Of a DNA stretch of 44,396 bases, positions 1 through 34,858 are shown in pieces. The stretch's first letter is position 1. Each line of letters starts with the position of its first letter. The position numbers and the translations under genes are program-made. The notes beneath the pieces are model-generated. The model saw only the letters and a list, made by a program, of their open reading frames with translations. It was not told the DNA's origin and ran no database searches. The stretch is from Acidithiobacillus caldus ATCC 51756. Lineage in GTDB: Bacteria; Pseudomonadota; Gammaproteobacteria; Acidithiobacillales; Acidithiobacillaceae. The stretch lies in NCBI RefSeq assembly GCF_000175575.2, contig NZ_CP005987.1, positions 84,684-129,079 of the forward strand, written 5' to 3'.

Positions 1-252
1 GAAATGCCGGTTCATCCTTATGGGTGCAGGTTCTTGCCCAGGGCTGGCCTTGGACACCGTGCGAACCCACTGACAAATCTGAAACAAGCGATTCATCAGA
101 TCTTCAGGGTAGAGTCCCTAGAGCTTACACAATCTTGCCCATCTCGCTCCGGGGATTAACCGAAAGGTGCCAATCTACGGGGACTGGCGCCAAGGCATGA
201 GACACTCTACAAGCGCATACAGCGAATGGGCAGAGTAGAGACGTCCTAGCTA
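1..252. other. No recognised gene
   Basis: I recognise no coding region, RNA or repeat in this stretch. It ends with the TA dinucleotide (251-252) that forms the left half of the target duplication of the adjacent IS630 element. Before that insertion it was joined directly to the sequence beginning at 1362. Confidence 0.5.
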
Positions 253-30431: not shown

Positions 30432-31559
30432 CTATACCATACATCCCGTTAAGGCCTTTCGCAAGAGCGACACATCGTGGTCTTGACGGGGAACCGCATA
30501 GGTCGTCACGCGACCGGCGGCGAGCCACTTCTGCAGACGGCTGGTTGGGACCGGGGCGCGCTCTGGCCGCATCCGTTCTCCATCGACAGGCGGTCCATCG
30601 TACACCTCGCAAAGGCTTCCAACCGGACGATAGAACCGCTGTCCATCCGTGAACCAATGCCCTTCCAGGTTCGCCGCGGCCTGGGCCTCGGCTTTTTCGC
30701 GCAGCGCCGCTTCCTGCGGCGATAGCGTCGTGGCAGGGCGTTTGGTCTCCCAGACCGGCTCGTCACCGGTGGTCATACGCCGTAAGGTGCCCAAGAGGTA
30801 GGCTTGCGGGTGTGTAGCCTGCCGTAACCGCTCACCGATGGCGAGCAGCACCGCGCTTAGGGTCGTGCCTGCCTCCCGAGCCCGCTTCATGCCTGTTGCG
30901 AGTACCGCAGGCGCAATGCCTCGATCGACCCAAGGCTGGAGATCCGCAGGCAACGTATCCTTTCGGGCAAAGTGCGTGCGCGCGTTCGCGACTGTGCTTT
31001 TACTGATTTTGTTCTTAATGGTTGTGTTCTCTATAGCGTGTATCTCTGAGATACACGGCCGTGTATCCAAGCCATCCCCGTGGATAGCCTGTTCGGTGGT
31101 GTCTGAGCGCAGGTTTTGCCCGGCGCTCTCGGTGGCGCTCAAAGCCTGTGTAACGGCCTGTGGCGCGTTTTTTGGGAGTGTGGTGTGTGGCGGGATTGGC
31201 TCGGCCAGGGCGGAAACCGGCTCGCCGGGCTGCAGGAGGCCTGCGATCTGCAAGACCGAATCGGAGATTCGGGTGCGCACGGTACGAAAGTTCCCCGTCC
31301 GCTCGGAGTGTTCCTGATGGAACCGTTCGATCAGGCCAGAGCGATGGAGCCGGACCAGGGCGCGCCGCACGGTTACGCAGGCCAGATGGAGTTTTTCCGC
31401 CAGAACCGCGGCGCGAGGGTGCACGGGCTCCCTGGGATTGCGCAGGGAGACGTAAGAAAGCAGCTCGATGAGGACGGACTGCTCGGTCCGGCCAAGGTCG
31501 GGCAAGGCGGTGTGGCGCAAGGTGTTCATTGCGCGCAGAACGACTGCAGGAGGTGCCAT
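30432..31559 (-). CDS. Winged-helix replication-initiator-like protein
   Basis: I start at ATG 31559 (375 residues), preceded by GGAG; a GTG 42 bp upstream is a weaker choice. The N-terminal part is a winged helix-turn-helix: LGRTEQSVLIELLSYVSLRN, then AAVLAEKLHLACVTVRRALV and LHRSGLIERFHQ. A long Ala/Pro/Thr linker follows (about 125-200), then a helical C-terminal half with SPQEAALREKAEAQAAANLE. HTH proteins of this shape next to parAB are often plasmid initiators or copy control proteins, but no recognised Rep domain is seen. It transcribes away from the AT-rich region and parS array, which fits an origin between them. The call is an inference from context. Confidence 0.55.
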   Translation of the reverse strand: MAPPAVVLRAMNTLRHTALPDLGRTEQSVLIELLSYVSLRNPREPVHPRAAVLAEKLHLACVTVRRALVRLHRSGLIERFHQEHSERTGNFRTVRTRISDSVLQIAGLLQPGEPVSALAEPIPPHTTLPKNAPQAVTQALSATESAGQNLRSDTTEQAIHGDGLDTRPCISEIHAIENTTIKNKISKSTVANARTHFARKDTLPADLQPWVDRGIAPAVLATGMKRAREAGTTLSAVLLAIGERLRQATHPQAYLLGTLRRMTTGDEPVWETKRPATTLSPQEAALREKAEAQAAANLEGHWFTDGQRFYRPVGSLCEVYDGPPVDGERMRPERAPVPTSRLQKWLAAGRVTTYAVPRQDHDVSLLRKALTGCMV

Positions 31560-32125
31560 AGCGAATCTCCATGATTTTGGGCAAAACCTCTCCCTTGACA
31601 CGGATTCGCTCTTTTGAAAAAATTGCAGCTGTTCTGGGTTGCAATTCTTTTGAGCGGTTTGCTCCAGTGTCCAGCTAGAGCGGTCCGTATCTCAGGTACC
31701 AAAGTCAGAGGCTGGGGTTTCCAAGACCCTAGCCTTTGATGTTTTCTGTATCTCTTCTTACGTCCTCATCTATGCCTCCTGGTGCCCGTATTCAGTGTTC
31801 GACTGAGCAGGCGCTAAGTGTGAATATAATGCATAGCACTTTATCTATACAACAGTATATGAGCTCCTGTGTCAACAAAGCTGGCCACGGCGTTCGCATT
31901 TTCACGGTTATAATCTAACTATCTGATTTATATGAGTTAATTAAAAATAGTCTGAATCACCAAGCGAAATTTGGCCAATCATTAGCCAGGCGGTTTTAAT
32001 AGTATCTATGGCTATATGTCTTGATCCTGTATATCTGATTTTTTCTTTTAACGATAAACCATAACGGAATATATGATCGACCTATATTCATGGGTCTGTT
32101 TAGCATATTGCTCTCCATGCGGTCC
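31560..32125. other. AT-rich intergenic region, candidate replication origin
   Basis: This stretch has no convincing gene and is AT-rich, especially 31780-32100. It contains an inverted repeat AATTGCA/TGCAATT (31621-31627, 31640-31646), which could be an operator of the Rep-like gene. It also has a near-perfect hairpin AGGCTGGGGT/ACCCTAGCCT (31709-31735) followed by TTTGATG. Placed between a Rep-like gene and a parS array, it is the best candidate for a plasmid origin; I found no clear DnaA box consensus. Confidence 0.4.
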
Positions 32126-32760
32126 TTGCGACGTGGTAAGACGGTTCTTCGGTGCGGTGTGACGTTGGTTTTTGCGACGTCGAAAAAAACGCGACTACTG
32201 AGGTAGGGTGTTTGTCTGTGGCAGCGGCCCGATACGGCGGAGGTCTGCTGGTGTTGGCTGTGCCTTGACGGGCGATTGGTTTTGCGACGTGGAAAGACGG
32301 TTCTTCGGTAGGGGGCTGCGTTGGTTTTTGCGACGTCGCAATAAGCGCGGCTACTGAGGTAGGGTATTTGTCTGTGACAGCGGCCCGATACGGCGGAGGT
32401 CTGCTGGTGTTGGCTGTGCCTTGACGGGCGATTGGTTTTGCGACGTGGAAAGACGGTTCTTCGGTAGGGGGCTGCGTTGGTTTTTGCGACGTCGCAATAA
32501 GCGCGACTACTGAGGTAGGGTATTTGTCTGTGACAGCGGCCCGATACGGCGGAGGTCTGCTGGTGTTGGCTGTGCCTGACTGGCGATGGGTTTTGCGACG
32601 TGGAAAGACGGTTCTTCGGTAGGGGGCTGCGTTGGTTTTTGCGACGTCGCAATAAGCGCGACTACTGAGGTAGGGTATTTGTCTGTGACAGCGGCCCGAT
32701 GCGGCGGAGGTCTGCTGGTGTTGTCTGTGCTTGTGGGCCATGGGTTTTGCGACGTCGCAA
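32126..32760. repeat. parS: parS-like centromere array, 156-bp period
   Basis: Nine sites share the core TTGCGACGT. Perfect 14-bp palindromes TTGCGACGTCGCAA lie at 32328, 32484, 32639 and 32747, with a near-perfect TTGCGACGTCGAAA at 32172. One-sided TTGCGACGTGG sites lie at 32126, 32282, 32438 and 32593. Spacing alternates about 46 and 108-110 bp, giving a 154-156-bp repeat unit. The array lies next to the parB stop, the usual position of a centromere. Frames reading through it are artefacts of the repeats. Confidence 0.8.
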
Positions 32761-32775
32761 AAATGGTTGGTTTGG

Positions 32776-33792
32776 TTAAGTCTCCTCAGACACTTCTTTA
32801 TCGTGGCCGGCGTCTTTTTCATCGGCAGAGAAGTCTTTCAACAACCGAATTGCTGCTTCCCTCAATGAGTCCAGGATCTTTCCCTCGTTATCTTTATCTG
32901 TGTATGCCGATAACAAAAACTCAACACGTCCATATCCATCAAAAACTGCGCTTGCTCGAATATTTTTTGATTCTACAATGTTTACCCTTTTTGTTTTTCT
33001 ACCGTTAATGTCCTTTTCTGCAAGCCCACGTGCCAAAACTTCTTGTAACTGTTTGATAGTTACCGACTTAGAACTGACTTTCTCTGCCAATTTTAGTCCA
33101 ACATCTGCGCCATGTCGTTCCTGTATTTTGAAAATCAGTTCTGCGAAGTTATAAGTAAATCTTTCAGGATTCTGTAATACGATCTCCAATATTTCTTTGG
33201 ATAATTTAGTATAGCAAAGCATTCTGGAAACCATGCTATCCGTCGTGCCCATTGCTCCTGCAAGATCGGATTGAGACTGGAAAACTCCATCGTTTATCAA
33301 TTTTCCCCAATACAAACCGATGTCAACATCATAATGATCGTTTCTTTTTTCATTTTCCATGAAAGCGAGAACGGCTATTTCTTTCACATCCTTGCTTTTG
33401 TGAATTATTGCAGGTATCGCTTGCAAAGATGGAATATCTTTTAGGTATTTCGTAATCGCTTTTAGTCTAGTACGTCCAGCTATGACTTGGTAGAAGCCAC
33501 TTTTTTTGTCATCCGGTACGACGTGTATTGGGTTTATAAGTCCATGAGCCCTGATCGAATCGGACATCATTTTTATTTTATCTTCTTCGTACACGCATCG
33601 TGGATTGTATTTATAGTCGATCAGTTTGTGGATGGGGAGAAGGTGTACGATATCTTCTTTCTGATCTGCCTGGCTTTCTGAGTTTATGTCGGTTTGGTAA
33701 TCCGCGAGACCGCGAAGACCGGAATCAGCTGCTTTAGCTCCGGAAACTGGAAGTGGTCTTGTCAATCCCATCGGCTTATCCATGATTCTCAT
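32776..33792 (-). CDS. parB: ParB-family centromere-binding CTPase-like protein
   Basis: The 338-residue protein has the ParB/Spo0J core: LPIHKLIDYKYNPR, then GLINPIHVVPDD, the CTP-pocket region VIAGRTRLKA (GERRxRA in chromosomal ParB, here G-R-T-R) and MENEKRND (ENxxRxD). A helix-turn-helix follows (SQSDLAGAMGTTDSMVSRML). Its start overlaps the parA stop by 17 bp, so the pair is coupled. It should bind the TTGCGACGTCGCAA array just downstream and spread or bridge to form the segregation complex. The gene is clearly more AT-rich than its neighbours, pointing to a different origin from the surrounding region. Confidence 0.9.
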   Translation of the reverse strand: MRIMDKPMGLTRPLPVSGAKAADSGLRGLADYQTDINSESQADQKEDIVHLLPIHKLIDYKYNPRCVYEEDKIKMMSDSIRAHGLINPIHVVPDDKKSGFYQVIAGRTRLKAITKYLKDIPSLQAIPAIIHKSKDVKEIAVLAFMENEKRNDHYDVDIGLYWGKLINDGVFQSQSDLAGAMGTTDSMVSRMLCYTKLSKEILEIVLQNPERFTYNFAELIFKIQERHGADVGLKLAEKVSSKSVTIKQLQEVLARGLAEKDINGRKTKRVNIVESKNIRASAVFDGYGRVEFLLSAYTDKDNEGKILDSLREAAIRLLKDFSADEKDAGHDKEVSEET

Positions 33793-34825
33793 CCCCTCTG
33801 TCCAACATTGCTAGGGTTTCTATTTCTCGAGAAAGCTCAATAAACTTTTGCGTTGTGAGGGATAGTGGTTCCGCCTCCAGCAGCGTCTTTTGACCATCCT
33901 CGTGGCCTTTTGGTCTCGCCAACCCGACGTATTCGGGTATGACCGTTGCGGTTATCCCAACCTTCGATGACGACTCTGAGTCGATAGATGCCCGGATAAT
34001 GTCTAGCGTACTGCGGGTGTGGGGCTTTCCGCCATGCAGCATGTTCGGTATAAAGGTTATTGGGACAACTCTGCCTGTTCCTTTTTTCAGCTCTCTGGCT
34101 AACTTGAATAAGTTCCCTGACGCTTTTATTGCCATCTTTGATAATTGAACGACAGATATGATTCGGTTCGATGCTGCGACAGCGGAAAAAGAAAGACTAT
34201 TCACAGATGGTGGGGTATCTATGAGTACAAAATCGTATTCTTCGAGCAGCGCTTGATTGCAAATGAAAACTTGCTCTACCAGCTTCTCCCTATATTGTGC
34301 CTGCACCATTAGCATGTCGGTCCAGACAAGACGATTGTCCGCTGGTAACAAATCTAACTGAAGGTCTTTTATTGGACGAATAAGACCCTTTCGGAAGTCT
34401 GCCGGTTTGTCGTGTATAACCGCTTCTACGGCATCCCCCAATGTGTAAATCTCCTGATCGACGTCGACGTCGAAAAGTAGCGAGAGTGATGCTTGAGGAT
34501 CTGTGTCGATTAGCAGAACGCGGTTCCCTGCGGCCGCCAAGGTGACACCTATGTTCGCGCAAATAGTAGTCTTGCCGACGCCGCCTTTCGAGTAGAAAAA
34601 AGCCAAGACTTCCGGTCTGTCAAACCTTGGTAAAGGCCATGGCGCGTCAACCGCTCGGATCTGTCTAGAATCGTCCGCCGTGTAGAGTTTCTTCCCGCCC
34701 TGTACCGGATAGGAGCCAGCCTGGAGTTTTTCGATGTGCTTGGCTAGCCGGCTCTCTCCTTCGAGACCATATCCAGTCAGGTTGGCAAGCACCCGGCGCT
34801 TGAAGTGTAAGACCCTCTCTTCCAC
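33776..34825 (-). CDS. parA: ParA-family partition ATPase (type Ia-like)
   Basis: The 349-residue protein starts with GTG 34825 after GGAGA. It has an N-terminal extension of about 70 residues (LANLTGYGLEGESRLAKHIE, HTH-like) that marks the larger type Ia class able to repress its own operon. The ATPase domain has the deviant Walker A FFYSKGGVGKTT (K80-T87), VLLIDTDPQASLSLLF, the Walker B-like DFVLIDTPPSVN and later VVQLSKMAIKASGN. ParA forms the nucleoid-bound gradient that moves ParB-bound plasmids. A perfect 16-bp palindrome lies 18 bp upstream of the start. The gene is coupled to parB. Confidence 0.95.
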   Translation of the reverse strand: MEERVLHFKRRVLANLTGYGLEGESRLAKHIEKLQAGSYPVQGGKKLYTADDSRQIRAVDAPWPLPRFDRPEVLAFFYSKGGVGKTTICANIGVTLAAAGNRVLLIDTDPQASLSLLFDVDVDQEIYTLGDAVEAVIHDKPADFRKGLIRPIKDLQLDLLPADNRLVWTDMLMVQAQYREKLVEQVFICNQALLEEYDFVLIDTPPSVNSLSFSAVAASNRIISVVQLSKMAIKASGNLFKLARELKKGTGRVVPITFIPNMLHGGKPHTRSTLDIIRASIDSESSSKVGITATVIPEYVGLARPKGHEDGQKTLLEAEPLSLTTQKFIELSREIETLAMLDRGDENHG

Positions 34826-34842: not shown

Positions 34843-34858
34843 CCTAGACATGTCTAGG
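34843..34858. promoter_or_regulatory. CCTAGACATGTCTAGG palindrome, parAB operator
   Basis: This perfect 16-bp palindrome lies 18-33 bp upstream of the parA GTG and partly overlaps the ribosome site (AGGAGA). Placement suits autorepression by the ParA N-terminal domain or by ParB. It is unlike the parS palindrome TTGCGACGTCGCAA, so separate proteins or domains may bind the two. Confidence 0.7.

Follow-up and report, generated by a model that had tools for sequence, protein, structure and literature searches.

A predicted parS array of long two-site tandem repeats beside the parAB operon of the Acidithiobacillus caldus megaplasmid

An array of palindromic sites next to the parAB operon of an Acidithiobacillus caldus megaplasmid is very probably the centromere (parS) of the replicon's own ParABS system, with ParB binding and partition predicted from sequence. 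The array lies in a 44,396-nucleotide stretch of strain ATCC 51756 (G000:C2:84684-129079; the whole of this stretch is the window below), within a 171,972-base contig of a 2.99 Mb genome (2,987,045 bases), and it sits between parB and a gene for a 389-residue protein of the helix-turn-helix (HTH) type, both on the minus strand (Table 1). Only two plasmid records matched the array region, the A. caldus SM-1 megaplasmid (92.4% identity) and A. caldus MTH-04 plasmid p1 (93.8%), with ParB 99.1% identical in both; on the strength of these matches we call the replicon an A. caldus megaplasmid. An initial annotation of the window had described the array as centromere-like, and we arrive at the same reading because the array adjoins the parAB operon, because A. 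marinus has the same palindrome next to its ParB, a protein 34% identical, and because the palindrome is absent near the A. marinus homologue of the rival HTH binder. That annotation was largely right in its observation of the sequence; the graded and phased design that it attached to the array is not supported.

Table 1. Features of the par region of the window (positions are those of the window; a point in the strand column marks features given no strand)
Feature	Position	Strand	Remarks
Predicted parS array	32126..32760	.	Four tandem units (156, 156, 155, 154 bp) plus terminal site; nine ParB-site candidates
Degenerate site TTGCGACGTGGTAA	32126..32139	+	2 mismatches
Site TTGCGACGTCGAAA	32172..32185	+	1 mismatch; corresponding SM-1 and MTH-04 site perfect
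Degenerate site TTGCGACGTGGAAA	32282..32295	+	2 mismatches
Perfect palindrome TTGCGACGTCGCAA	32328..32341	.	
Degenerate site TTGCGACGTGGAAA	32438..32451	+	2 mismatches
Perfect palindrome TTGCGACGTCGCAA	32484..32497	.	
Degenerate site TTGCGACGTGGAAA	32593..32606	+	2 mismatches
Perfect palindrome TTGCGACGTCGCAA	32639..32652	.	
parB-proximal perfect palindrome	32747..32760	.	15 nt past parB stop; A. marinus counterpart at L027:9214-9227
parB	32776..33792	-	338 aa, ParB of the HTH type; passes the TIGR00180 and Pfam ParB_N cut-offs; Noc proteins are its best solved relatives
parA	33776..34825	-	349-aa Walker-type ATPase; Pfam AAA_31, 1.4e-30; 17-nt overlap with parB start
389-aa protein gene	30432..31601	-	Sub-threshold winged-HTH matches; alternative candidate binder of the palindromes

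Nine exact TTGCGACGT sites lie on the plus strand of the array, at start-to-start distances of 46, 110, 46, 110, 46, 109, 46 and 108 bp, and tandem-repeat detection returned a period of 156 bp (4.1 copies, 94% matches, score 1104), bearing out the nine-site array with repeats of about 156 bp that had first been described. Each unit holds two site positions 46 bp apart, a degenerate TTGCGACGTGG(A/T)AA followed by TTGCGACGTCGCAA, the second site of unit 1 carrying one mismatch. Measured against the TTGCGACGTCGCAA palindrome, four of the nine sites are perfect and one departs at a single position; each of the remaining four carries two right-arm mismatches. Read as 16-mers, the terminal site is symmetric throughout (8 of 8 pairs), the three further perfect 14-mers reach 7 of 8, and the degenerate sites 5 or 6 of 8. 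Because the degenerate sites keep 12 of 14 palindrome positions, with both mismatches falling in the right arm, they count as degenerate palindromes and not the half or one-sided sites for which they had been taken. The proposed alternation of full and half sites survives in that two grades mostly alternate; it fails at the parB end, where the sites at 32639 and 32747 are both perfect, and it is not strict elsewhere, the site at 32172 being a one-mismatch TTGCGACGTCGAAA. Phased spacing is likewise not supported, since at 10.5 bp per turn 46 bp make about 4.4 turns and 108-110 bp about 10.3-10.5 (no consistent whole-turn phase), and other systems are spaced differently (37/173 in Delftia). The region from 32101 to 32800 is strand-biased in composition, with a GC skew of about +0.3, an AT skew of about -0.3 and a plus strand rich in G and T.

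When up to one mismatch is allowed, the TTGCGACGT 9-mer matches the window 27 times where 11.5 matches are expected, and no shuffle out of 100 attained 27. Every exact copy of the TTGCGACGTCGCAA 14-mer in the 2,987,045 bases (four) falls inside the array, as does every copy with at most one mismatch (five); against these five, a reversed control pattern gave one match. Across 57 genomes the one-mismatch motif is present in 19, against 33 for the reversed control, and the A. marinus genome holds three one-mismatch sites against three control matches. As the one-mismatch motif is not enriched genome-wide, it is location, not number, that carries the argument for parS.

The two proteins encoded beside the array fit an HTH-type ParABS partition system. 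ParA is a Walker-type ATPase (Pfam AAA_31 at 107 bits, cut-off 27, E 1.4e-30; the more specific ParA_partition model NF041546 gave 88.1 bits, under its cut-off of 180). ParB is above the cut-offs of TIGR00180 (80.1 bits against 58.45) and ParB_N (47.1 against 26.3), with HTH_ParB sub-threshold (14.6 against 22.6); its residues 41-257 align with the sequences of Noc structures (E 2.2e-19), and its solved relatives are Noc and other ParB/Spo0J proteins. The A. caldus ParB and its A. marinus counterpart both keep the motifs GxxR and ENxxR, which align with Noc and which we take to be the CTP-binding motifs of ParB, and G106, R109 and N147 are invariant across the seven ParBs compared, so that the A. 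caldus protein is predicted to bind CTP and to be of the CTP-switch type. The layout of the locus is type Ia-like, parA and parB overlapping by 17 nt and the nearest site following the parB stop after 15 nt; in the F plasmid, too, the available part of the source places a cluster of sites downstream of parB in the par operon (PMC9178275). A perfect 16-bp palindrome, CCTAGACATGTCTAGG, stands 17 nt upstream of the parA start (window 34843-34858); the SM-1 and MTH-04 loci that we fetched contain no exact copy of it, and it is possibly an operator of the par operon.

Evidence from outside the species comes from A. marinus SH, the one relative returned by a search for close ParBs over genome contigs (the same search over viral contigs found none, and a search of 369 class-level genomes at E 1e-18, an even sample that may miss genomes, found the A. 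caldus genome only). Its par operon encodes a ParB 34% identical over 279 residues, with 14 of 31 residues identical in the HTH stretch, and a ParA 49-51% identical. Within 1.8 kb downstream of this parB lie TTGCTACGTCGCAA and TTGCGACGTCGAAA, each with one mismatch, which are two of the three one-mismatch sites in that genome; TTGCTACGTCGCAA is 15 nt past the parB stop, exactly the distance of the terminal site in A. caldus. These two sites form no array, and an array is therefore not needed there. No such site accompanies two further ParBs from the same bacterial family, which are 27-29% identical (loci L028 and L029); each of these loci holds a different palindrome twice. This 16-bp palindrome, TGTGCCGATCGGCACA (L028:1408 and 2641, L029:7977 and 9365), lies near another ParB gene and is possibly the parS of a different par system. 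A further contig of A. marinus, C48 (L071), carries genes like those of the window as read from their translations (a helicase, a ribonucleotide reductase beta subunit and the HTH protein), which suggests that A. marinus carries a related large replicon.

We examined 16 distant plasmid parAB loci (L031-L035 and L055-L065), picked by hand from the 38 non-A. caldus matches listed of 451, partly by match strength and partly for variety, and compared the copy number of 14-bp palindromes in each with 100 shuffles. At seven of the 16 loci, a proportion that this choice prevents from being read as an unbiased rate, one palindrome occurs in 4-12 copies, a count reached by no shuffle. In six control stretches, of which one came from A. 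marinus and five, including an overlapping pair, from the window, no palindrome exceeded one copy. Two of the seven, L035 and L065, share a motif at nearly the same positions and are not independent, and at L058 one of the four copies is inside parB. The other nine loci fell below the shuffle criterion: six had no copy or one, and three were weak and not counted (L031, reached by 9 of 100 shuffles; L060, by 7; L055, by 2, with a G+C-rich motif). Among the nineteen shorter loci of other ParB matches (L006-L024, 2.5-3.9 kb, A. marinus included) we found no repeated perfect palindrome. Six of the seven clustered palindromes start with TT and have a central CG, the exception being that of Comamonas. 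Three clusters (L032, L034, L059) are situated downstream of parB; the other four lie mostly on the upstream side of the parA-like gene. The cluster of a Delftia acidovorans plasmid (NZ_CP065697; L032:4941-6134) is a predicted parS array of twelve perfect TTCATACGTATGAA sites, partly arranged as 37/173-bp pairs in 210-bp tandem units; predicted parS clusters also stand beside plasmid parAB at L034:2261-3261, L035:2452-3050, L058:2858-3085, L059:4987-5216 and L061:2559-2991, with TTTCACCGGTGAAA, TTGTGCCGGCACAA, TTGGCTCGAGCCAA and TTGCACCGGTGCAA as example palindromes.

The number of units differs among strains. The array was recovered, as the initial annotation had proposed looking for it in related plasmids, from SM-1 with three units and MTH-04 with five, against four in the window, giving 12 units in all. 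The first units of SM-1 and MTH-04 are the same (0 differing columns), and unit 1 of the window differs from each at 8 columns, being as close to MTH-04 units 3 and 4 (7 and 8) as to the other first units (8 and 8). Neighbouring interior units differ at 4 (window 2-3), 9 (MTH-04 2-3) and 1 (MTH-04 3-4) columns, and the last units of the three strains at 8, 10 and 17. The pattern is consistent, though not tidily, with recent duplication and unequal exchange, and we consider a history of unequal exchange probable; it would account for the conserved filler with no need of a function. The terminal site has a left flank like that of a degenerate site, yet it is a perfect palindrome in all three strains, and we therefore infer that the degenerate arm is the derived state. 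The ancestral site was probably the perfect palindrome just past the parB stop; a segment of about 156 bp with two site positions, one of them decayed in its right arm, would then have been amplified in tandem in the A. caldus lineage, and gain and loss of units by unequal exchange may have produced both the alternating grades and the conserved filler.

The initial annotation suggested a graded ParB loading array with phased spacing, on the basis of filler conservation and two site grades. As a refinement of the parS reading, perfect sites would nucleate and degenerate sites at a set spacing would tune the loading or retention of ParB. In favour of such a role, all 12 units retain the degenerate right arm GTGG(A/T)AA. 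Two observations speak against neutral decay: TTGCGACGTGG is retained by 11 of the 12, and variation is lower in site columns (3 of 28) than in filler (43 of 128; Fisher p 0.02), although this test is a weak one in units that share descent. Binding of ParB to half-parS has moreover been published (PMC10419367, PMC5450999 and PMC3688505, in the parts available). The same pattern can arise from common recent descent of the units, however, and variation in unit number together with recent duplication explains the filler that had suggested a design. One degenerate site of SM-1 has decayed further, to a third mismatch, the site at the parB end is perfect in every strain despite its degenerate-type flank, and the closest layout that we found, that of Delftia, is perfect at all 12 sites. 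We therefore regard this refinement of the parS reading as unlikely. Equally doubtful, and if anything more so, is a version in which the two grades are maintained, perfect sites loading ParB clamps, sites always decayed on the same side adjusting the density of ParB in a weak secondary or directional role, and dosage being set by gain and loss of units; were it true, the long unit with two sites, of 156 bp in A. caldus and 210 bp in Delftia, would represent a recurrent design of centromere.

A different reading makes the repeats iterons, bound by a replication initiator (perhaps the 389-residue HTH protein), and the array part of an origin. Iterons are often placed upstream of rep, and the array is indeed upstream of the 389-aa gene, from which AT-rich DNA separates it (GC 0.32-0.39 at 31801-32100); no other iteron-like repeats were found at 31400-32130. 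Yet iterons are closely spaced direct repeats that accompany a rep gene, and the sites here are 14-bp palindromes 46-110 bp apart, not tightly packed direct repeats, so that in spacing as well as in their association with parB in A. marinus they depart from that class. In A. marinus the HTH protein has a 35%-identical homologue, encoded on another contig than parB, and the 12-kb stretch around it contains no palindrome with up to three mismatches. An exact DnaA box, TTATCCACA, is absent from the whole window, and within 31400-32130 there is also no copy with one mismatch; the 389-aa protein is itself only a putative initiator. With the A. marinus palindromes going with parB and not with the HTH protein, we rejected the iteron reading, which we hold to be highly improbable.

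The HTH protein has relatives in Paraburkholderia plasmid pBN3 (28% identical; L059:5570-6745), where its gene directly follows parA, parB and the palindromes, and in A. marinus (L071:5157-6341), and it is perhaps a replication protein of an undescribed family. Elsewhere in A. marinus, about four 20-bp direct repeats (GGATGATACTTTTTTGT and variants; L027:6850-6928) looked iteron-like; they adjoin genes that resemble tnsA and tnsB by eye, for which reason we discarded an iteron reading of them, and they are perhaps the end of a Tn7-like element. That the minus-strand frames open through the array (31996-32652 and 32100-32822, of 218 and 240 aa) form a gene for a repeat protein can be virtually dismissed: unit lengths of 154, 155 and 156 bp shift the frame, on which ground we rejected a coding reading, the 240-aa frame has no Pfam match and the 218-aa frame sub-threshold matches only, and the features listed for SM-1 and MTH-04 (from an incomplete gene table) include no gene at that place.

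Taken as parS, the array resembles several described systems in part. The parS of Bsr systems, on secondary replicons of Burkholderiales, is defined, in the part of the source available, as a 16-bp palindrome with a T-rich 5' end, a core of 2C/2G/1A/1T and a central CG (PMC5450999); the A. caldus (T)TTGC-GACGTC-GCAA, with its core GACGTC, fits this definition. The systems differ in that Burkholderiales plasmid ParB relatives are only about 22-30% identical to A. caldus ParB among the matches listed, the likeness being one of the site, and in that the A. caldus sites are set in a long tandem unit. The same partial source describes parS12J, present in five copies that are altered at two positions of one arm and are bound by the cognate ParB; it also gives a range of half-parS binding, close to wild type for some ParBs and absent for others (PMC5450999); the A. 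caldus degenerate sites are like parS12J in their one-arm changes.

The F plasmid parS (sopC) comprises, as far as the available text goes, twelve 43-bp repeats with ten 16-bp binding motifs (PMC6238139, PMC7205306, PMC9178275), and arrays with members that have no working motif are therefore already known. It is like the A. caldus array in being made of tandem direct repeats downstream of the par operon, and differs in having a 43-bp one-site unit and another motif where A. caldus has a two-site unit of 154-156 bp. The Delftia cluster shares two sites per long unit in part of its array (37 + 173 = 210 bp), a central ACGT and a position downstream of parB, and differs in that all its sites are perfect 14-mers and its ParB is 30% identical over the matched part. 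In Pseudomonas aeruginosa, ParB binds half-parS and can occupy one-arm sites (PMC10419367, in part); those are heptamers scattered over the chromosome, in contrast to degenerate palindromes within an array.

The statement that no described parS has this layout accordingly stands for the literature searched, in which we found none, and needs qualifying in that its ingredients are published (one-arm changes in parS12J, tandem parS in F, as far as these sources were available). The available portions of two further sources name ParAB of the A. caldus megaplasmid with no centromere named (PMC3826726) and propose a CTAT-repeat centromere only for another plasmid family (PMC12375680). Our literature search returned no paper joining Acidithiobacillus, parS and centromere among the matches listed, which does not prove that none exists. 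We regard the array as a putative ParABS centromere of a known kind with an unusual long two-site unit.

In the mechanism that we propose, the usual one for such systems, ParB dimers would recognise TTGCGACGTCGCAA through their HTH domain, load at the palindromes, probably with CTP, and then spread onto adjoining DNA, the degenerate sites presumably binding ParB more weakly; ParA would move the ParB-DNA complex such that both daughter cells inherit the plasmid. The analysis thereby predicts, for the A. caldus megaplasmid, a specific parS motif together with a minimal site, and this prediction could help to build stable vectors for bioleaching bacteria. The natural arrays of three, four and five units would form a dosage series bearing on the number of ParB sites required by a low-copy plasmid and on whether the degenerate sites have any role.
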